64,000 nucleotides of DNA from Microbacterium protaetiae (GTDB lineage Bacteria > Actinomycetota > Actinomycetes > Actinomycetales > Microbacteriaceae), in the NCBI RefSeq assembly GCF_004135285.1, contig NZ_CP035494.1, positions 1 through 64,000 of the forward strand. Reading direction: 5' to 3'. This document shows positions 44,356 to 54,152 of the stretch, in pieces. Position 1 is the stretch's first letter; each line of letters opens with the position of its first letter. A program made the position numbers and the translations under genes. Below the pieces are notes generated by a model. That model made no database searches. It saw nothing but the letters and a program-made list of their open reading frames with translations, and was not told where the DNA came from.

Positions 44356-44563
44356 ATCCTCTTCGCTCGCTTCAACCAGGGTCGGGATCCCGCCAGGGCT
44401 TGCCGCACGCAACCGGGACCGAAGCTCCACACAGGTCAGAACGACGCTGCGTCGGCGTGGTGCGGGGTGTGGGGGCGCGAGGCTGATTCTGGTCCCCTGG
44501 GTCTGCTGAAGGTTTGGTTGAGTCCTTGATCGCATGATTCCCGGGTGGGGGTCTGCTGGAAGG

Positions 44564-44863
44564 ATGGCAATCGTGCCGAAGATCTATTCCGATGAGTTCA
44601 AGCGGGACGCTGTCGCGTTGGTCGCTGCTGGCTCATCGCAGAAGAAGGTGTGCAGGGATCTGGGTATCTCGAAGACTGCGCTGCAGACGTGGGTGAGAGA
44701 TGACCGGTTCCGCTCCCACGGGTTCGCTCCAACCACTGATCCCGACGAGCGTCGGGAGATGAGTGTGGCGTTGCGGCGGATCCGGGAGTTGGAGATGGAG
44801 AACGAGGTGCTTCGGCGGGCGGCGGCGTATCTGTCGCAGGCGCATATCCGCTCCCCAAAATGA
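44564..44863 (+). CDS. IS3-family transposase OrfA
   Basis: A 99-residue DNA-binding protein with a helix-turn-helix (YSDEFKRDAVALVAAGSSQKKVCRDLGISKTALQTWVRD) and a C-terminal leucine-zipper-like helix (RRIRELEMENEVLRRAAAYL), the standard OrfA layout. The start at 44564 follows GGAAGG. Its end overlaps the OrfB start by four bases at CCCCAAAATGA; the A run could permit the -1 frameshift that IS3 elements use to make an OrfAB fusion. Confidence 0.9.
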   Translation: MAIVPKIYSDEFKRDAVALVAAGSSQKKVCRDLGISKTALQTWVRDDRFRSHGFAPTTDPDERREMSVALRRIRELEMENEVLRRAAAYLSQAHIRSPK

Positions 44864-45456
44864 TCTACCCGCTCGTCCGTGAGATGGCCGCGGCCGGTGC
44901 CCTTGTCAGGGTGCCGGTCGCGGTGGCGTGCCGGGTGCTCGGCTTTACCGCGCAGGCGTACTACAAGTGGCTGAAGACCCCCATGAGCAGGCGGGACGTG
45001 AACGACGCGCACCTGATCAACGTGCTCCACGACCTGCACGAGGACGACCCTGAGGGCGGGTACCGGGTGCTGGCCGATGACCTCGCTGATGCCGGCCATG
45101 CGGCCTCGGAGCGGCGGGTGTGGCGGCTGTGCCACGTGGCGGGGATCCGTTCGGTGATCACGACCCGGAAACGCCGGTACAAGAAAGCGGGCCCGCCCGT
45201 GCATGACGACCTCGTCCAACGCGACTTCACCGCCGATGGTCCGAACCGGCTGTGGCTGACGGACATCACCGAGCACTGGACGGCCGAGGGCAAGCTCTAC
45301 CTCTGTGCGATCAAGGATGTCTGGAGCAACAAGATCGTCGGCTACTCGATCGATTCGAGGATGAAGGCACGGATCGCCGTCAACGCACTGGAGATGGCAG
45401 TCGCTCACCGTGGTGGCCCCGAAGGCGTGATCGTGCATTCGGACCGAGGAAGTCAG

Positions 45457-46953
45457 GGCGGATTCAATCAATCGTCGCAACACCTTGATCATGGAGGTGT
45501 TCAGCGATGGCAACGGCGGACTGGAGTCGAAAGACCAGCGATGTCCCGGAGGGTGTGCGTCGGCAGTGGCGTGCGGATCGGGCGCTGCGGCCAGCGCTGC
45601 GTTCGCCCGGGCGGCCTGATCCATCGCGGGTGGTGCAGCGGCAGTTCTGGCGGTTCATCGCGACGGGCGTCACGACAGCGGAAGCGTCGTTGGCGGTTGG
45701 CGTGTCGGTACCAGTCGGCACGCGCTGGTTTCGCCACGCTGGCGGCATGCCACCGATCAGTCTGGCCGCCCCGACGGGCCGCTACCTGACCTTCGAGGAA
45801 CGTGAGGAGATCGCGATCCTGCGAGCCAAGAACGGGGGTGTTCGTGAGATCGCTCGTGCTCTGGGGCGTGATCCCGGGACGATCTCACGCGAACTGCGCC
45901 GCAATGCCGCCACCCGTGGCGGGACGCAGGAGTACCGCGCCACGGTCGCTCAGTGGAAGGCCCAGCAGGCCGCGAAACGACCGAAGGTCGCCAAGCTCGT
46001 CGTCAACGACAGGTTGCGCGAGTATGTCCAGGAGCGTCTTGACGGCACCGTCCGCCGCGTGGACGGCACCCCGGTGTTGGGGCCGAAGACGGCCGAGTGG
46101 AAGGGCCGGGGCAAGCCGCACCGGCAGGATCGGCGGTGGGCCACGGCGTGGAGCCCGGAGCAGATCTCGCACCGGCTGAAGATCGATTTCCCCGATGATG
46201 AGTCCATGCGAATCAGCCACGAAGCGATCTACCAGTCCCTGTTCATCGAGGGGCGTGGCGCACTCAAACGGGAGCTGGTCGCATGCCTGCGCACCGGCCG
46301 CGCACTGCGCCAGCCGAGGGCACGGTCGCAGAACAAGCCTCAGGGGCACGTCACCGCCGATGTCGTCCTCAGCAAGCGGCCGGCGGAGGCCGCTGACCGC
46401 GCGGTTCCCGGGCACTGGGAGGGCGATCTGATCATCGGAGCGGGCCGGTCCGCGATCGGCACCGTCGTGGAACGCAAGAGCCGTTCCACGCTGCTGGTGC
46501 ACCTGCCCCGGCTCGATGGGTGGGGACACGTCCCCGCCGTGAAGAACGGACCCGCGCTCAGCGGTTACGGCGCCGTCGCGATGAACACCGCGCTGGCGGC
46601 GTCAATCGCGCAGCTGCCCGAACAGCTGCGCCGAACCCTCACCTGGGACCGAGGCAAGGAACTGTCCGAGCACGCCCGGTTCACCCTCGACACCGGCACC
46701 AAGGTGTTCTTCGCAGACCCGCACTCGCCCTGGCAGCGCCCCACGAACGAGAACACCAACGGCCTGCTGCGTCAGTACTTCCCGAAAGGCACCGACCTGT
46801 CACGGTGGTCGGCCGAAGACCTCGAAGCCGTCGCCCTCGCGCTGAACAACCGCCCCCGAAAAGTCCTCGACTGGAAGACACCTGCCGAGGTCTTCGCCGA
46901 ACAGTTACAATCACTCAAAACCGATGGCGTTGCAACGACCGGTTGAACTCGCC
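45457..46953 (+). mobile_element. IS30-family insertion sequence (1497 bp)
   Basis: Terminal inverted repeats start GGCG and match at 21 of 28 positions (45457-45484 and the complement of 46926-46953), with shared blocks TTCAA, TCGT and GCAAC. The target duplication is CAG at 45454-45456 and 46954-46956. Three-base duplications fit the IS30 family. Removing the element plus one CAG exactly repairs the IS3 orfB. The element contains a single full-length transposase, so it may still be active. Confidence 0.92.
45507..46946 (+). CDS. IS30-family transposase
   Basis: A 479-residue DDE transposase. An N-terminal DNA-binding region (YLTFEEREEIAILRAKNGGVREIARALGRDPGTISRELRRN) is the IS30 helix-turn-helix. 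The catalytic residues are the Asp of HWEGDLIIGAG, the Asp in LTWDRGKELSEH and the Glu in NENTNGLLRQYFPKGTDL, the standard IS30 signature. About 85 extra residues precede the family core, as in some actinobacterial members. The gene is intact. Confidence 0.93.
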   Translation: MATADWSRKTSDVPEGVRRQWRADRALRPALRSPGRPDPSRVVQRQFWRFIATGVTTAEASLAVGVSVPVGTRWFRHAGGMPPISLAAPTGRYLTFEEREEIAILRAKNGGVREIARALGRDPGTISRELRRNAATRGGTQEYRATVAQWKAQQAAKRPKVAKLVVNDRLREYVQERLDGTVRRVDGTPVLGPKTAEWKGRGKPHRQDRRWATAWSPEQISHRLKIDFPDDESMRISHEAIYQSLFIEGRGALKRELVACLRTGRALRQPRARSQNKPQGHVTADVVLSKRPAEAADRAVPGHWEGDLIIGAGRSAIGTVVERKSRSTLLVHLPRLDGWGHVPAVKNGPALSGYGAVAMNTALAASIAQLPEQLRRTLTWDRGKELSEHARFTLDTGTKVFFADPHSPWQRPTNENTNGLLRQYFPKGTDLSRWSAEDLEAVALALNNRPRKVLDWKTPAEVFAEQLQSLKTDGVATTG

Positions 46954-47288
46954 CAGTTCCGATCACGTAAGTTCCTCAAGGCGCTGAAGCGTCACAAGCT
47001 AACCGGATCGATGGGCCGGATCGGCGCGTGCTCGGACAACGCGGCCATGGAATCGTTCTTCAGCCTGCTGCAGAAGAACGTCCTCGACCGAGGCGGATGG
47101 AACACCCGCCACCAGCTCCGGCTGGCGATCGTGCAATGGATCGAAGGGACCTACCACCGCAAACGCCGGCAACGCCGACTCGGGAAACTGACCCCCATCG
47201 AATTCGAGACCATAATGATAGAAACCGTCGCACTAGCGGCATAAACCCCGGACTCAACCAAAGCCTCAGCAGACCCCCCGGGCTTTTC

Positions 47289-47332
47289 CGTCGGGATGAC
47301 AGGATTTGAACCTGCGACCCCCTGACCCCCAG
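47289..47332 (-). repeat. Left att copy: 44-bp duplicate of the tRNA-Pro 3' half
   Basis: Forty-four bases are identical to 54077-54120, which span the anticodon loop, T arm and 3' end of tRNA-Pro(GGG) plus two bases beyond. Similarity also continues loosely into the GGGCTTTT terminator tail (47280-47288). After 47332 the sequence diverges and no D arm or 5' acceptor strand follows, so this is not a working tRNA. It marks the site where an element integrated into the tRNA gene. Confidence 0.9.
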
Positions 47333-47422
47333 GCGTCCGAACGGCACGACTTTCACTAAAAACCGCGTGATTCCGCAGCTCAGATCATGCAGACCGCGTC
47401 ATGGATTGCATGGATTGCATGA

Positions 47423-47444
47423 TTCTGGTCCCCTTTTGGTCCCC
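47423..47444. repeat. 22-bp direct repeat, left copy
   Basis: Starts TTCTGGTCCCC and contains TTTTGGTCCCC; an exact copy lies at 53909-53930. A shorter part (GATTCTGGTCCCC) also directly abuts the left end of the IS3 element at 44486. The pair flanks the operon of the island and may be the end of a lost integrase or part of the recombination region. Confidence 0.7.
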
Positions 47445-47514
47445 GTCCGGCGGTACGCCAATAACACAGCTTCCGAGGCGTCACCAGTCAGTCGATAACG
47501 GACGACCTGCCCGT

Positions 47515-50500
47515 TTAGGAATTCGAACCGTGCCCTTGCATTTGTGCAATGCGATCATCAGCATCCTCAAAATCGTCCTCGATGTCCGCGATGACAACGG
47601 CCGTGCCGTAGACGACCGCAGCATCGGTTCCTGGTGTTGCCGCTTGGTCTGTGTCAAGCAGCAGCAGGCTTTGCAAGCTCGCGATCTCATCCCATCCAGA
47701 TCGGCCTTCTTCCGCTGAGCCCTTTGCGGTGGACAGGTCATCAGTGATCGCCGAGCCGATGACCGTCAAAATGTTGCTGAGCGCGGACACATAGTCGGTT
47801 CCAGCGTGAGCGGAGGTGAGTTCATCGAGTTGCGTTTTGAGGCCGACAAGACGGTCCCACGATTCGTCAAGCACCCGTCCTTCCTCGTCGGGAATCAGAG
47901 TGCTCCCGCGGATCGCAATGATCGCCGCGATCGAAGAGAGACGACGAGCTTGCTGAAGATAAGCCCCGTAAGGATCAGAAATTGGTGTCGCAGCGGTCGA
48001 GCCTGCGAATGCGGAAGGCGCTCCACGATCGCCAAGTGGGAGCACCCCGTGATGCGCAACCTGGAAGATCGAGGCAGACAAGTAGCCATCGGCTGAGCGC
48101 AGTCCAATCCATACACGCCGGTCGGGCTGTTCAACAGCAGCTCTCGCAGCATCCGCGAGAGACGCGAGAGCATTTAGATGGGTGAGGACGCTCTCTCCTT
48201 CCACAGTGATCACTAGGTCTCCTGGAGGCCAACTCATCATCGTGTGGTCGGAGGAGCTCGGCACTACAGCGACCGCGTACCCCGCGCTTGTGAGCGCAAG
48301 TCGCATTCGTTCGGCCTCTTTCTGCAGGGCTGCGAAAGAGCGCTCGGTCGCAACGGTGGCTGCTGCTGCGATCCGAGCGGTTCCCGTGTGTCGCCCAGCA
48401 GCGGCCCGCATGGATACGCGCGTTGATAAGTCCGATCCTGCGCTGGCGGACGCGACCATTCGCAATTGGCGGAGACAGTCGAGTAGCTGAGCGCAATCGG
48501 GCGGGTCGGGGAGGTAGCGGTATCGGTCGAGTTCGATCAAGGCGCCGACCTTTGGGATGAGACTGTCGAGCGTTCCGACAGTCAGGATGGGGCGCCGCTC
48601 GGCGACATCTGCCCGTGCAAGGTTTGGAATGACGTACTGGAGCATCGATCGCACGACAGTGATGGCGTCGCTCTCGACGGGATAGTCACCGAGAGCGCCG
48701 GGCACTTCGTCCGTGTAGCCCTCGTCTGCCGGGGAGTCCATCTCGGAAAGTAGCGCGTTCACCGATTCGAACTGACGGACAATCGTTTGAGGCACAGTCC
48801 GATCGCCTAGGTGGGCGATGGTGATCTCGGGAAGCAGGTCGATGAGTGCCCCGAGCGCTTTAGCCTCAGCCGCAAGCTTGGACGTCAGCGTGCCCGCGCC
48901 GTACTTTCGAGACAACGCTCGAGCCTGGGCTCTGTTGTCGGAGACTTCGAGGGTATGGGGCAAATTCTCCCGCGGAATCGCTTTGTCAACGAGCGGGTGG
49001 TCGCCGAGCTTGACCAAACGCCCAAGGGCATCAACGGCACTTACCCGGGCGATCAACGCTGTCGGCGCAAGAGCGAGGGCCAGTCGGCACACCTCAACGA
49101 CGGCCTCGTTCTGGTTCGGCTGTAGCTCCTCGTCGACGAAGATCCACCTGCCATCCACCCCGTCGTCTACGCGTTCCAGCGATGCTAGCCACGGTGTTTC
49201 TATCGCGATCCTGCGCAGGAGGAGCTGCTCGCCGCCGGCTGTGATGACAGCGCGTTCCGCAAGTTCGGGTGCCGCGCGGCGCAACGCCTCCGTCATATCG
49301 GCCGCGTCGTGCAGCGGCCATACAGTCAGGCGTGCGCCGATTGCACCTGCCGTGGACTCCAGGGCTGTGACGTCAAAACCGCGAAGTACGGTGATGGCCT
49401 GCAAAAGGAGTTGAGTTGCATCATCATCGGGGACCGCGGCGGTCGTGAGTTCTTCGACCAGCGTCGTGTCGATCATTTGCCATAGGGGTTGCAGATCCGG
49501 ATCGGTCGGGACGCTGCGGAGCCGCTCGACGGCTGCCACAATCTCGGGTTTGAAGAGCTGTTCTGTGCCGGGGCGCGGCTTTGTGCGGGACATCGTGAAC
49601 GCAGTTACAGCGTTGCCAGCATCAACGTCACACTCATCGAGGATGAGCTTCCAGTCGTCGGCCCGCCGTCGCAGTCCATCGGCGCGGAAAGCGGATGCGA
49701 CTGCGATGAGCGTCTGGAGGGTGCGATCGCGTGTGATGCGCTCGGTTGCGGCCTGGATCATTACGGCCTGGTCGGCCCCGGACTCGAGTGTGCGTCGGAG
49801 AAATCGGGCGAGTTCGGCGCCGGTCACCAGAGGCACAATGCGCTGGAGGGTCTCCTGCTGTCCGAAGGGGTGAGCTGCCCGGGCGAGTGCGGCGGAGCGG
49901 ATTTCGTGCAGCGGTCGTATGAGGTTGCCCGAGTCCTCAACGATGAGGTGCTCGTCGATGAGGCGGCGGCTGGCGGCGATGAATGCGCCGCGATCGGCAT
50001 CCAGAGCGGATTGGATCGCGTGTGCAGGGACGGCGACGCCATATTGGTTGGCACACGATGCGATCCGGAGGATCTCAAGCTCAAGATGTCGACTCGGGTC
50101 TGCTTCGCGTGCGGCGACTTGCGCGCTGACGACGGTGTCGAGATTCACGCCTTCGGTGAGCAGAGTGACGTACTCCAGTAGGAGACCGCCTGCTCGCTCG
50201 GCCGGTTCCCGCCATCCGGCCCATTCGGTGAGATTGTCAGTCCGGTAGTCGCGCCAGAGTTGCTCTGCAAAGGTGTCGTCAAGCATGGGCGTTATCGTGG
50301 CAATGGCCGACAGTAGCGGGACAGGGAAGCGGTCTTCCTCCCGAATCGAAACAACGGTGATCACGTTCGACAGATCCGCGAGCCGTCTCAGTAGTCGATC
50401 GAGGAGATCTGGGTCGTGGCGCCCAGCGTCATCGATGAGGACTCCCACAGGGGCATACGCACTCGGCCGCAAAGACTCAATGCGTGCGGAAAGAAGTGCG

Positions 50501-51633
50501 ACGGCATCGCGCCCGGTGCGCCCCGTTGGTGTCAGCGAATGGACATGCTGCCAGCGATACAGACTCCGAGTTTCGTGCGCGGATGCGTAGGCGAGTGCGC
50601 TCTTGCCACTGCCGCTCGGCCCGGCGATGACCGCCAACCGGCGGGCCGCCGCGACTTCGATCACCTGCTGGGTTAGTTCAAAACGGGGCACGAGTAATCC
50701 GGCAGCGACATGGGGAGCCCCCACATGCACGCCCTGACGTATGTCGGAGTCATCAGCAGGCGATCTCCAGTCGATTGCCTCGCAAACCCCCAGCGACTTT
50801 GCCTCATCGAGCAACTCAAGGTCAACGGTCGCAAGGACCTGGTCAATGAGGACATCGATGCCTGCAATGTCCACGGCCGCGCGCCGCGCGACATCCGGGT
50901 CCGCGTTCGAGTCGCTAGCCTGTCCCACCTGGGTGCAAACGGCAGCCACAATGATTTCCGCAAGTCCATCCGGGAAATCACGAGCCCCGGCAACGATGCT
51001 GATCGCCTGCGCGTGCGGATCAGGACAAATTACAACTGAGGCTGAGGCCGCAAAGGCAGCCGAATCCTGGTCGTTGTCGAAGGAGAGAGCATCCAGTTCC
51101 TTGGCCAATTCACTCGAGGCACTCGAGGCAGGTTGTGCAGCCTCACTCCCCCACTCGGGGACTGGGATTCGAGCGACCGGGCGCTCAAGCAAGAGGATCG
51201 TCTCGGCTGAGAGTTCGGCTTCCTTGCGCTTCACCCAGGCCTTCGCGACGGAACGTAAGTCTTTTCGCAGGTCTGTCGGGGCGAAATCGCCCGCGCTCTC
51301 GCGTCGCGACTTGACCTGAATGAAGAATGACCCGCTCGACGACTGCACCGAAATGTCGTCAAACCCTTCCGGTGTCACGACCGCTGTCGCGTCACCCTCG
51401 CTCCACAGACGCAATACAACGAGCGTGGCGACCAGATCCTGAAAACGAAAGCCGCGCCCGGCACGTGCACCGGCTCGGGAAGCAGCCCACAACGCAGCCT
51501 GTGGGTCGGTTGGCACGCTAGTTGACGCTGGGCTGGCATGCAGTGAGGTCTCCCGTTTCTGGCCGCGGCGCTCCTGCGCAGCACCTCGTCGGCGCGCTTC
51601 GGCTATCGCGCGTTCGGAGCTTCGACGGGTCAT
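47515..51633 (-). CDS. Large PD-(D/E)xK-like nuclease plus STAND-type NTPase protein
   Basis: A 1372-residue protein. Residues about 50-150 look like a Cap4/DUF4297-type nuclease: RAGRGFRFQDLVATLVVLRL, then E89, D93 and a QVK (106-108) in FFIQVKSR, the acidic-to-Lys pattern of PD-(D/E)xK enzymes. An NTPase follows, with Walker A AGPSGSGKS (337-345), Walker B VGVLIDD (396-402) and VITVVSIREEDR after it, as in STAND proteins. The remaining 900 residues are a long, probably helical sensor region without a recognised domain. The architecture recalls Avs-type antiphage proteins. It is the last gene of a three-gene operon on a tRNA island with lower GC than its neighbours. Confidence 0.75.
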   Translation of the reverse strand: MTRRSSERAIAEARRRGAAQERRGQKRETSLHASPASTSVPTDPQAALWAASRAGARAGRGFRFQDLVATLVVLRLWSEGDATAVVTPEGFDDISVQSSSGSFFIQVKSRRESAGDFAPTDLRKDLRSVAKAWVKRKEAELSAETILLLERPVARIPVPEWGSEAAQPASSASSELAKELDALSFDNDQDSAAFAASASVVICPDPHAQAISIVAGARDFPDGLAEIIVAAVCTQVGQASDSNADPDVARRAAVDIAGIDVLIDQVLATVDLELLDEAKSLGVCEAIDWRSPADDSDIRQGVHVGAPHVAAGLLVPRFELTQQVIEVAAARRLAVIAGPSGSGKSALAYASAHETRSLYRWQHVHSLTPTGRTGRDAVALLSARIESLRPSAYAPVGVLIDDAGRHDPDLLDRLLRRLADLSNVITVVSIREEDRFPVPLLSAIATITPMLDDTFAEQLWRDYRTDNLTEWAGWREPAERAGGLLLEYVTLLTEGVNLDTVVSAQVAAREADPSRHLELEILRIASCANQYGVAVPAHAIQSALDADRGAFIAASRRLIDEHLIVEDSGNLIRPLHEIRSAALARAAHPFGQQETLQRIVPLVTGAELARFLRRTLESGADQAVMIQAATERITRDRTLQTLIAVASAFRADGLRRRADDWKLILDECDVDAGNAVTAFTMSRTKPRPGTEQLFKPEIVAAVERLRSVPTDPDLQPLWQMIDTTLVEELTTAAVPDDDATQLLLQAITVLRGFDVTALESTAGAIGARLTVWPLHDAADMTEALRRAAPELAERAVITAGGEQLLLRRIAIETPWLASLERVDDGVDGRWIFVDEELQPNQNEAVVEVCRLALALAPTALIARVSAVDALGRLVKLGDHPLVDKAIPRENLPHTLEVSDNRAQARALSRKYGAGTLTSKLAAEAKALGALIDLLPEITIAHLGDRTVPQTIVRQFESVNALLSEMDSPADEGYTDEVPGALGDYPVESDAITVVRSMLQYVIPNLARADVAERRPILTVGTLDSLIPKVGALIELDRYRYLPDPPDCAQLLDCLRQLRMVASASAGSDLSTRVSMRAAAGRHTGTARIAAAATVATERSFAALQKEAERMRLALTSAGYAVAVVPSSSDHTMMSWPPGDLVITVEGESVLTHLNALASLADAARAAVEQPDRRVWIGLRSADGYLSASIFQVAHHGVLPLGDRGAPSAFAGSTAATPISDPYGAYLQQARRLSSIAAIIAIRGSTLIPDEEGRVLDESWDRLVGLKTQLDELTSAHAGTDYVSALSNILTVIGSAITDDLSTAKGSAEEGRSGWDEIASLQSLLLLDTDQAATPGTDAAVVYGTAVVIADIEDDFEDADDRIAQMQGHGSNS

Positions 51634-51848
51634 ATATTTGATGGTATCGACGACCAGCGACGCATGACCGCTGCGTGCATGGGACTAGCTTGTGTCCCTG
51701 CTTGCATCTCTAACGGTGGGCGACCTGTGGTCGGGTCCAGGACGATGAGTCCGAGGATCAGTTTGTAGAGTTTCTCGACGCCGATCGACACCCGCGTCGA
51801 GGTCATCTCCGCAAGCAGAGCAAACCCTTGCTGTCGGTCCAAGTCCAC
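51630..51848 (-). CDS. Small conserved-looking protein between the two large island genes
   Basis: A 72-residue frame starting at GTG with GAGGG ten bases upstream. It reads VDLDRQQGFALLAEMTSTRVSIG and then VEKLYKLILGLIVLDPTTGRPPLEM. Its stop overlaps the start of the nuclease/NTPase gene (ATGA, 51630-51633), so translation would be coupled. A small middle protein between two large ones recalls multi-component NTPase defence systems, but no family is recognised. It could still be a chance frame; the good ribosome site and coupling argue otherwise. Confidence 0.55.
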   Translation of the reverse strand: MDLDRQQGFALLAEMTSTRVSIGVEKLYKLILGLIVLDPTTGRPPLEMQAGTQASPMHAAVMRRWSSIPSNI

Positions 51849-51924
51849 GATCGCGACGCCCTCAGGCTAATAACGTGGACGGACAACCCCGCTCGTACGC
51901 GCCCACTGGACTCCTTACCACTGG

Positions 51925-53538
51925 TCAGCCGCTAAAGCTCTCTTCATCGATGCCGATCAGTTCCCACGACGCAGTGACGAGGAGGTCTTCGTTGCCAGAT
52001 ACCTCAGCGATTCCGGGTACCCAGGCCAAGAACTGTTCGCCAGGGGGCGGCTCCATCCGGTAGGTCTTGGCCTCAGGCCCCGTCTCGGGAGCGAGACCGG
52101 TCTCCGTGGCCGTCATCGCGGGGTGACGCATGACGGTCTGCGGCGTGGGGACTTCTGCGCCGCCGACGTTCAGCGTCCCGGCGGCAACAACCACTACCTG
52201 CGGCGGATTGCCTTCGGGGGCCGTGACCGTGACCGGATGACGCATGGCGTGGACGATATGGCCCTCCAGCAGCAAACGAGCGCGACGCAGCCGCACACGG
52301 TCACGGTCGTCAAAACGACCGTTGCAGGGATCAAAGGTTTGTCTACTGAGACGCTCGATCCTGACGATGTCTTCGACCGTCTCCGCGATCACCTCCATCC
52401 CCCGTTGTTCCTTCTCGGGGATAGCTGGCGGCCCAAGAGACAGCAGCTCGCTGCCTCCAACCTCAAAGGCCACCGCAGTAGAGCGGTGGAATTGAAGCAT
52501 AAAGCGCGTCGATGCGAGCTTGAGGTCATTGGTCGAGTCGAACACCTCCCAGCCTCGGAAGTGTGCGTCAGTCATCCGCTCGCCTTGAGTGTCGAAGGAG
52601 AACTTGAACACGACGCTGCCGGCAACCAGCACATCCCATTCAGCGAAGGTAGCGTCGGGGCGGCGACGGGCCACGGCCGCGTCGTAAGCCTCCGTGATAT
52701 CGCCGTCGTCGTCGCGCAGCACGACGCGGACGTGGTTGGCTGGGTCCTGTCTGAGCAGTTCAGTGACGGTGAAAGCACTCCAGTCCTTGGTCAACTCCAA
52801 AGAGTCGCGCATGTCCGGCACCTCGCTACCTAACGGCGCGACGTATGCCCTTGCCTCTTCGATCAGTTCGGACGTACCGACGGTGACATCGTCCTCCCAC
52901 GCCGAGTGGTCCAGGGCGAGCACCTGTGCGTCCCGTAGCGACTCGACGATTCGCAAGGTCGCTACCGTCAGCGCTGCCATGTGAGAGAACACGCGGACGG
53001 CTGCGGCATATCGCTCGCGGAGGGGGAACGCGAGTGCCTCCTGTTTCGGTCCTTGAGCGTCAGCATGGACGAGGTCGGCGTACAGCCAAGCGGCGGCGAG
53101 CTGCGTGTCCGAGACCCTGTTGGTCACGTCGGTCCCATCAATGCGGGCCGATTGCACAGAGTATGCCTGGACTTGGGTTCCTTGAATCTCGGAAGCATCC
53201 CAGGCACGCCGAAGGTGGTGCAGGCGCGCTCGTAGAGCGTCGTCAACATCAGCTTCCCTGATGAGGTGCTCGATCGCGTCGAAGACCTTCACGTAGTGGA
53301 CGGGCTCGGACTTCACTGTCAACGGCCTCACTCTCGAAGCCAATGACTCGAAGATCTCCTCATTAGCCGGGAGGCGCCGTGTAATGGTCATTTGACCGGT
53401 CACGTCGATGCGACCGTCGAAGCTTCCCTGCGCGTGCCGCAGCAACTCTTCATTGTTCTGGACGATCGAGTGCGCCTGAACCCGCCGCGCACGCAAGACG
53501 AACCGCCGCAGCGTTTCGTGCTCGTTGAACGTCACCAT
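51925..53538 (-). CDS. Uncharacterised 537-residue island protein
   Basis: First gene of the island operon. No recognised domain. The N-terminal half is helical (RRFVLRARRVQAHSIVQNNEELLRHAQG, then LAAAWLYADLVHADAQGPKQEALAFPLRERYAAAVRVFSHMAAL). The middle is mixed with VRVVLRDDDGDITEAYDAAVARR and FKFSFDTQGERMTDAHFRGWEVF, and the end is beta-rich. No signal peptide or membrane helix is evident. The ATG at 53538 or at 53586 may be the start; neither has a strong ribosome site. It probably works with the two genes downstream as sensor or partner. Confidence 0.65.
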   Translation of the reverse strand: MVTFNEHETLRRFVLRARRVQAHSIVQNNEELLRHAQGSFDGRIDVTGQMTITRRLPANEEIFESLASRVRPLTVKSEPVHYVKVFDAIEHLIREADVDDALRARLHHLRRAWDASEIQGTQVQAYSVQSARIDGTDVTNRVSDTQLAAAWLYADLVHADAQGPKQEALAFPLRERYAAAVRVFSHMAALTVATLRIVESLRDAQVLALDHSAWEDDVTVGTSELIEEARAYVAPLGSEVPDMRDSLELTKDWSAFTVTELLRQDPANHVRVVLRDDDGDITEAYDAAVARRRPDATFAEWDVLVAGSVVFKFSFDTQGERMTDAHFRGWEVFDSTNDLKLASTRFMLQFHRSTAVAFEVGGSELLSLGPPAIPEKEQRGMEVIAETVEDIVRIERLSRQTFDPCNGRFDDRDRVRLRRARLLLEGHIVHAMRHPVTVTAPEGNPPQVVVVAAGTLNVGGAEVPTPQTVMRHPAMTATETGLAPETGPEAKTYRMEPPPGEQFLAWVPGIAEVSGNEDLLVTASWELIGIDEESFSG

Positions 53539-53582
53539 GTCTCTAATTGTCGCCCGTTCCAAGGCTCCCTCGCCAAGCAGGA

Positions 53583-53880
53583 TCATCTCCGAGAACCGCT
53601 GGCGGCCGGAACCTCAGCTTGTTCATTTGGGCGCCGATCAGGCGCGCCACGGAGATGGGGCCGATCCAGAGCATCTTGAACACGTTCCACCCAGAACAGG
53701 GAGACCAGCGAGCAGAGCCAGCCGGCCCCGTCCTTGATGACGGTGCCGCAGTAGTTCGCAGCGGAGAGATAGGGCACGGCGAAGAGCTACGTCGCCTCCG
53801 CCGCCGAGCAGGCCAACGCGTTCCTTAAACGGTCTGCCAAGGTGAGCGGGCAGTCGCGCCGCAGCGCGTCGAGGACCCTG
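53583..53880 (-). pseudogene. Decayed coding remnant in the island
   Basis: Reading the minus strand gives protein-like stretches in shifting frames: VPYLSAANYCGTVIKDGAGW followed, one frame over, by MLWIGPISVARLIGAQMNKL. They look like parts of one gene broken by frameshifts and stops. No family is recognised. It lies between the intact operon and the tRNA, where an integrase or excisionase would normally be. The rest of 53587-54040 shows nothing else identifiable. Confidence 0.4.
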
Positions 53881-53908
53881 TAGGGGCCGTAGAAGACCCC
53901 GTGCAGCG

Positions 53909-53930
53909 TTCTGGTCCCCTTTTGGTCCCC
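53909..53930. repeat. 22-bp direct repeat, right copy
   Basis: Exact copy of 47423-47444. Together they bracket the operon and the decayed remnant inside the tRNA-derived repeats. Confidence 0.7.
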
Positions 53931-54041
53931 TTATCCACAGGTCGCACCGTTCAGAGGGCACCGGAGACCAATCGACGCCTCTTGCTTGGCGAGCGGGGGA
54001 CCAGGAGGGACCAACAAAAACCCGTCGCTGGACACGACGAA

Positions 54042-54076
54042 GCCCCGATGAAAATGGCTTCTCATCAGGGCTTTTT
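54042..54076 (+). terminator. Hairpin and T-run at the island/tRNA junction
   Basis: GCCCCGATGA (54042-54051) pairs with TCATCAGGGC (54062-54071) with one mismatch, followed by TTTTT. It would stop rightward transcripts, and read the other way it follows the 3' end of tRNA-Pro. A related GGGCTTTT tail precedes the left att copy. Confidence 0.65.
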
Positions 54077-54078
54077 CG

Positions 54079-54152
54079 TCGGGATGACAGGATTTGAACC
54101 TGCGACCCCCTGACCCCCAGTCAGGTGCGCTACCAAGCTGCGCCACATCCCG
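54079..54152 (-). tRNA. tRNA-Pro (anticodon GGG)
   Basis: Cloverleaf on the minus strand: acceptor CGGGATG pairs with CATCCCG, discriminator A at 54079, anticodon stem CCTGA/TCAGG around the loop CTGGGGG giving anticodon GGG, and T arm with GGTTCAAATCC. No CCA is encoded. Its 3' half (54079-54120) is duplicated at 47289-47332, so the gene was used as an integration site and its 3' end was restored by the incoming element. Confidence 0.95.

Follow-up and report, generated by a model that had tools for sequence, protein, structure and literature searches.

In Microbacterium protaetiae, three neighbouring frames on a lower-GC island raise the question of whether they form one antiphage system or whether a single gene among them acts alone. 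The window, which is the whole stretch of 64,000 nucleotides analysed (positions 1 to 64,000 of contig NZ_CP035494.1, assembly GCF_004135285.1), carries in order ORF1, a frame of 72 residues and a gene for a giant protein of 1372 residues. An earlier note, made from the sequence alone, described three co-directional frames with an ATGA overlap between the last two and proposed a new three-gene system with an obligate-looking pairing of its members. The frames lie on the minus strand, and the overlap joins the 72-residue frame to the giant gene, as described. The giant protein is probably a stand-alone Avs-like immune sensor, carried as cargo at the distal attachment (att) end of tRNA-Pro(GGG) islands, with ORF1 as separate cargo and the 72-residue frame as a dead remnant. 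The giant gene has the following features.

Positions 47515 to 51633, minus strand: giant gene, 1372 residues, with a nuclease of the Cap4/DUF4297 type, a STAND-type NTPase and a long C-terminal part.
Positions 51268 to 51477, minus strand: match to the Cap4 nuclease family (PF14130), giant residues 53-122, with the motif PEGxDD...QVK at residues 88-108.
Positions 50599 to 50622, minus strand: P-loop or Walker A motif with the sequence GPSGSGKS, at giant residues 338-345.
Positions 50425 to 50448, minus strand: Walker B region with the sequence VLIDDAGR, at giant residues 396-403 or one residue further along, and with D401 invariant.
Positions 50332 to 50343, minus strand: REED motif, giant residues 431-434, with R431, E433 and D434 invariant in a 17-sequence alignment.
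Positions 47518 to 48633, minus strand: C-terminal part, giant residues 1001-1372, the proposed sensor.

The giant matches PF14130 with 31.8 bits against a cut-off of 26.2 (E 2.1e-7). At least 35 homologues of the giant were found at E 0.001 among 7992 candidates, and the 17-sequence alignment consists of the query and 16 of these 35. Invariant in it are P88, E89, G90, D93, Q106 and K108 of the nuclease, G338, S340, G341, G343, K344 and S345 of the P-loop, and D401. A second alignment of eight sequences takes in four plasmid homologues at 23-28% identity. At identities down to 23%, P88, E89, G90, D93, Q106, V107 and K108 are still invariant, along with S340, G341, G343, K344, S345 and D401, and the REED motif is partly gone in the most distant homologues. 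The nuclease motif, P-loop and Walker B of the earlier note are thus confirmed, and the loss of the acidic and QxK residues that it named as a possible objection is not seen. PADLOC models of LmuA and HamA match the giant, and they cover the nuclease region only (residues 50-135; HamA 50-111). PDB sequences of LmuA and AbpA align at the same PE..D..QVK motif; the search with the single sequence gives them E about 0.1, the profile 1.6e-4 to 9e-4.

The island on which the giant gene lies is anchored at a tRNA gene and has these features.

Positions 54078 to 54152, minus strand: tRNA-Pro, anticodon GGG, found by ARAGORN.
Positions 54068 to 54120, no strand assigned: att copy at the tRNA-Pro(GGG) gene, with which it overlaps.
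Positions 47280 to 47332, no strand assigned: repeat of the tRNA-Pro(GGG) 3' end that forms the distal att copy.
Positions 47416 to 47444, no strand assigned: 29-bp direct repeat near the distal end, a candidate integrase arm site.
Positions 53902 to 53930, no strand assigned: partner of the 29-bp direct repeat (90%) near the tRNA end, with the same putative role.

The guanine-plus-cytosine (GC) fraction per kb is 0.585-0.643 across positions 47001-54000 against 0.637-0.723 in the remaining window, with a single exception (a bin at 0.601), which bears out the lower GC reported earlier. Direct repeats of the tRNA-Pro(GGG) 3' end (53 bp, 98% identical, 44 bp exact) form the island borders, and their spacing of 6788 bp gives an island of about 6.8 kb. 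The 29-bp repeat pair sits just within both ends. At the locus L056 (see below) an integrase gene adjoins the tRNA, and L057 has integrase pieces. No relative of the L056-type integrase was found by phmmer (E 1e-5) among the window frames of at least 60 codons, so an integrase has apparently been lost from the window island.

Searches for the giant were positive in one of 98 relatives, which is the window's own genome, and, with the first 600 residues as query, in 5 of 398 genomes of the window's family (its own genome, one close hit and three weak ones), in 6 of 295 of a second family (two of them close) and in 2 of 198 of the order (its own genome and one weak hit). Five close loci result: the window, L068, L092, L056 and L057. 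L068 has a block of ORF1, relic frame and giant with 92.5% DNA identity to the window over 6271 bp; a TrwC relaxase gene lies upstream, and a tRNA is absent from the 19.9 kb read. L092 has a giant that is 97% identical, without ORF1, and an att-like copy downstream, with no tRNA within the 19.9 kb read. Immediately upstream of this giant (L092:3555-8354) are genes for a Sir2-domain protein, a 190-residue protein that weakly matches Avs2 in PADLOC (E 2.5e-4) and an SMC protein to which LmuB models match. This set appears Lamassu-like, and a further AAA-domain protein lies beyond it. At L056 the giant is 89% identical and lies near tRNA-Pro(GGG), with an integrase, a 118-residue protein and a resolvase alongside; no distal att copy was seen at this locus. 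A GT4-conflict glycosyltransferase (PF20706; L056:13799-15610) adjoins the L056 giant on the opposite strand. At L057 the giant is frameshifted and missing a stretch, has AbiEi/AbiEii and the integrase pieces as neighbours, and is enclosed by 48-bp tRNA-Pro att repeats 7118 bp apart.

Three of the five close loci (window, L056 and L057) thus have the tRNA-Pro(GGG) gene, and PADLOC defence-system models match the companions of two sister giants, the Lamassu-like set at L092 and AbiE at L057. The claim of a Cap4-type nuclease-STAND protein on an island stands, with the tRNA as anchor and defence genes beside close relatives.

Among the four intact copies (window, L068, L092 and L056), the ratio of nonsynonymous to synonymous divergence (dN/dS) is 0.21-0.25 in all six pairs, and by this measure the giant is kept by purifying selection. 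Residues 1001-1372 have a larger share of the amino-acid changes than residues 1-1000 in every pair (Fisher p 0.001 to 0.25, with p < 0.05 in five of the six), where the pairs are non-independent and the cut at 1000 was picked after an earlier comparison. A faster-changing C-terminus would fit a sensor under shifting pressure.

The closest likeness in layout is to Avs (AVAST) proteins, above all of the Avs3 type. Known Avs proteins are similar to the giant in size and island setting, and the giant has the same order of an N-terminal nuclease, a STAND-type NTPase and a long C-terminal part. The N-terminal effector nuclease of Avs1-4 is present as PF14130. For the mid-protein STAND NTPase, the P-loop and Walker B residues are invariant, with nSTAND scores under the cut-offs. 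According to two papers, Avs proteins tetramerise on a phage protein, with activation of the N-terminal nuclease (PMC12198126, PMC12931631); activation of Avs3 proceeds through nuclease-domain pairing, and DUF4297 contains a Cap4-like nuclease (PMC12198126). By analogy, the C-terminal part of the giant would bind a phage or other mobile-element product, and the STAND NTPase would then assemble the giant protein. Adjacent N-terminal Cap4-type nuclease domains would pair, become active and cleave DNA, which would end the infection, probably with sacrifice of the cell. The trigger, the assembly, the DNA cleavage and the phage defence are what we infer from the Avs model, and the gene itself would be carried by small tRNA-Pro(GGG) islands, at their distal att end, while its companion genes are exchanged. 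A giant that does defend against phages would represent an additional Cap4-STAND family, which PADLOC's 2023 Avs models fail to recognise and which spans Actinomycetota to Alphaproteobacteria.

Several points weigh against reading the giant as a stand-alone Avs-like sensor. The matches to nSTAND1 (21.9 bits, cut-off 27.1) and nSTAND_NTPase5 (17.2 bits) are both under the Pfam cut-offs. No PADLOC Avs model matches the giant up to E 1, in a search where HMMER filters discard most matches above about 0.1, and a PDB profile search gave 31 sequences up to E 10, none of them named Avs. The NTPase and C-terminus are, on these searches, at best distant from the tested Avs proteins, and the claim is therefore that the giant works like Avs, not that it is a known Avs type. 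ORF1 and the giant also occur together at L068, where no tRNA-Pro was read, and a two-gene unit is possible on that account. Finally, of 34 genome loci with an ORF1 relative, not one showed the giant in a profile search, and this zero is weaker than it looks. It rests mostly on distant relatives, with only L002, L003 and L018 above 50% identity; the L018 match is partial, L002 has only 1.2 kb downstream, several contigs break off after a few kb, and the genome collection behind these loci may omit records near the window's genome.

Other known systems have the Cap4-like nuclease core in common with the giant, namely Lamassu LmuA, AbpA, HerA-associated DUF4297 and Hachiman HamA. In these systems the nuclease works with a separate SMC protein or ATPase/helicase, whereas in the giant the NTPase is in the same chain as the nuclease. 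The family-library scans on the island covered its three frames, and in these there was no match to Lamassu LmuB or an SMC family and none to Hachiman HamB or a helicase model. Neither the LmuA+LmuB nor the HamA+HamB layout is thus present. Cap4 of CBASS belongs to the same nuclease family, PF14130, and its layout there includes a SAVED domain and a nucleotide cyclase gene. The giant has no Pfam match to a SAVED domain. Of the three island frames only the giant has a Pfam match; ORF1 and the 72-residue frame gave none up to E 1, and the CBASS layout is not seen here. No literature on the giant or ORF1 family was found in titles and abstracts of open-access papers. As a nuclease-STAND gene on a mobile tRNA-Pro island, the giant is interesting and not categorically new.

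The start of the giant gene is also the point where the close loci begin to resemble each other.

Positions 51634 to 51664, minus strand: conserved 5' leader of the giant, a candidate core promoter and roughly the limit of BLAST homology with L056, L057 and L092.

In all six BLAST-compared locus pairs with differing upstream contexts (the window with L056, L057 and L092; L068, L056 and L057 with L092), the homologous sequence sets in 30-34 bp ahead of the giant ATG. Four different upstream modules are attached there: ORF1, the Lamassu-like set, AbiE, and the integrase/resolvase genes. The shared start of homology fits a giant module that brings its own short promoter. A more far-reaching idea, which we put forward only tentatively, is that in tRNA-Pro(GGG) islands of actinobacteria a Cap4-STAND gene is fixed at the att end, and that modules are joined to it at almost one and the same base, 30-34 bp before the ATG, at a dedicated exchange junction, making a swappable defence cassette. 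The repeated junction before the giant's start could reveal how modules are exchanged in defence islands.

The best surviving alternative to a stand-alone giant concerns ORF1.

Positions 51925 to 53586, minus strand: ORF1, 553 residues (537 from an inner ATG at 53538), member of an uncharacterised family and probably separate mobile cargo.

ORF1 has at least 132 homologues with E up to 0.001 among 7990 candidates. It has no match in PADLOC up to E 1, in PHROGs up to E 0.1 or, with its profile, to any PDB chain up to E 1, and NCBIfam gives one model far under its cut-off (13.4 bits of 650). Residues R71, P72, Y153, D155, H158 and R176 (numbered in the 537-residue form) are invariant in 112 aligned sequences, which include some shorter proteins of about 250-280 residues. 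Its dN/dS between the window and L068 is 0.17, a value by which ORF1 is under purifying selection. Relatives of ORF1 occur in 7 of 295 genomes of a genus sample and in 11 of 396 of an order sample, with the window's genome counted in both. Besides the window's genome, only G591 (the source of L068) has the giant beside an ORF1 relative, where several of the other loci are stretches of 3-5 kb.

ORF1 as an ordinary phage protein was considered and dropped: neither PHROGs nor phage records match it, despite three distant relatives on IMG/VR viral contigs. On viral contigs, no relative of the giant was confirmed. Large NACHT or AAA/STAND-like proteins are encoded near two other ORF1 relatives (L011:11737-15366 and L012:4347-10748), and the giant profile gives no match to them.

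In some lineages ORF1 and the giant could act together as an immune system of two genes, with ORF1 as adaptor, regulator or second effector and the intervening relic irrelevant. Their order and orientation are the same in two genomes of one genus, in the 6.27-kb block of high identity already described, which lies once on a tRNA-Pro island and once with a TrwC relaxase gene on its upstream flank. Both genes are free of indels between the window and L068, the dN/dS of ORF1 is 0.17, and within the genus sample both genomes with a near-identical ORF1 carry the giant. Against this, ORF1 is absent at three of the five close giant loci (L056, L057 and L092), and the giant is absent from the 34 ORF1 loci, with the reservations given above. 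The two genes also differ in their histories: between the window and L068 the synonymous divergence (dS) is 0.33 in ORF1 and 0.12 in the giant, and the window giant is nearest to that of L092 (dS 0.053), which has no ORF1. The leader of the giant is conserved without ORF1 as well. We consider a two-gene unit rather unlikely. The obligate-looking pairing is not supported by these counts. Giants are not always alone, as the window and L068 have ORF1 beside them, and they do occur without it.

The stand-alone giant may instead have a different target. It might guard against plasmids or conjugative elements, or stabilise its own island, rather than act on phages. Distant homologues of the giant, at 27-33% identity, are found in nine plasmid records; six of the nine are predicted conjugative, and four of the nine are Agrobacterium plasmids with the same match. 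The L068 block and the ORF1 relatives at L004, L005, L006 and L008 adjoin TrwC relaxase genes or, in one case, the remains of such a gene, which agrees with such a target. Defence genes are commonly carried on plasmids, so plasmid carriage does not reveal the target, and the Lamassu-like and AbiE companions match PADLOC defence models. A target other than phages seems unlikely, slightly more so than the two-gene unit.

The neighbourhoods of ORF1 relatives show a repeated link of this family with mobilisable elements through TrwC-type relaxase genes. At L004, L005 and L006, which are alike, the ORF1 relative lies about 40 bp after the relaxase gene, at L008 it follows the remnant, and at L068 the relaxase gene is about 0.8 kb upstream of ORF1. 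No ORF1 was found in the five of the nine giant-bearing plasmid records that were read. One of the plasmids, from Marinovum algicola (L039:6106-14287), has a distant giant homologue that overlaps a second gene of 1458 residues by 14 bp, a different possible pairing.

The third frame of the presumed system has a different explanation.

Positions 51630 to 51848, minus strand: 72-residue frame with a GTG start, a relic of a family of about 232-247 residues; with the lost start included, the relic covers 51630 to 51857.

A search that admitted proteins of 0.55-1.75 times the query length gave four short homologues, P0156-P0159; the full-length family lies outside that size limit and was reached through plasmids instead. 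Plasmids of Cellulosimicrobium protaetiae and Rhodococcus fascians carry members of 247 and 232 residues, and neither giant nor ORF1 accompanies them in the 16-kb stretches fetched. Compared with P0156-P0159, the 72-residue frame is missing a block of 26 residues mid-protein and has a diverged C-terminus. The family's first-residue codon is GTC in the window, and the frame begins three codons further on; the C-terminal half of the family is absent. The final codons are the giant's own conserved leader, and the ATGA overlap is thus best read as an accident. The L068 copy has the same internal deletion, and its frame is broken by additional small indels. Five indels (1, 2, 2, 1 and 1 bp) separate the window and L068 within 47515-53586, all in the relic or the giant's leader. 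No relative of the frame was found by tblastn in L056, L057 and L092. Judged from its sequence, the frame is a decayed fragment or pseudogene remnant of a protein of about 240 residues.

The small protein as a conserved partner is rejected on the internal deletion, the lost start and the L068 frameshifts, and a three-gene antiphage system that requires it, as the overlap and the shared direction of the genes had suggested, is extremely improbable. Outside the window, the survey of the trio found ORF1, relic and giant together only at L068, with the small frame broken. The three-gene layout is thus not a conserved unit, and the doubt raised earlier about conservation of the two smaller frames proved right for this frame and not for ORF1. 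Decay can leave behind what looks like a tidy three-gene operon, ATGA overlap included, which is a caution for operon-based defence discovery.

The full-length family may resemble HEPN/AbiV proteins, a likeness that the Pfam search did not back, as two full-length members gave nothing up to E 1. The 72-residue frame has no PHROG match up to E 0.1, and viral contigs gave one weak match of 14 residues to its relative P0156.

Directly outside the distal att copy, at 44534-47244, are transposase frames with HTH_Tnp_1, rve and rve_2/rve_3 domains. These HTH_Tnp_1/rve frames, which we take to be IS3-like (IS, insertion sequence), are interrupted by a transposase frame at 45507-46946 with HTH_38 and rve domains, presumably IS30-like.

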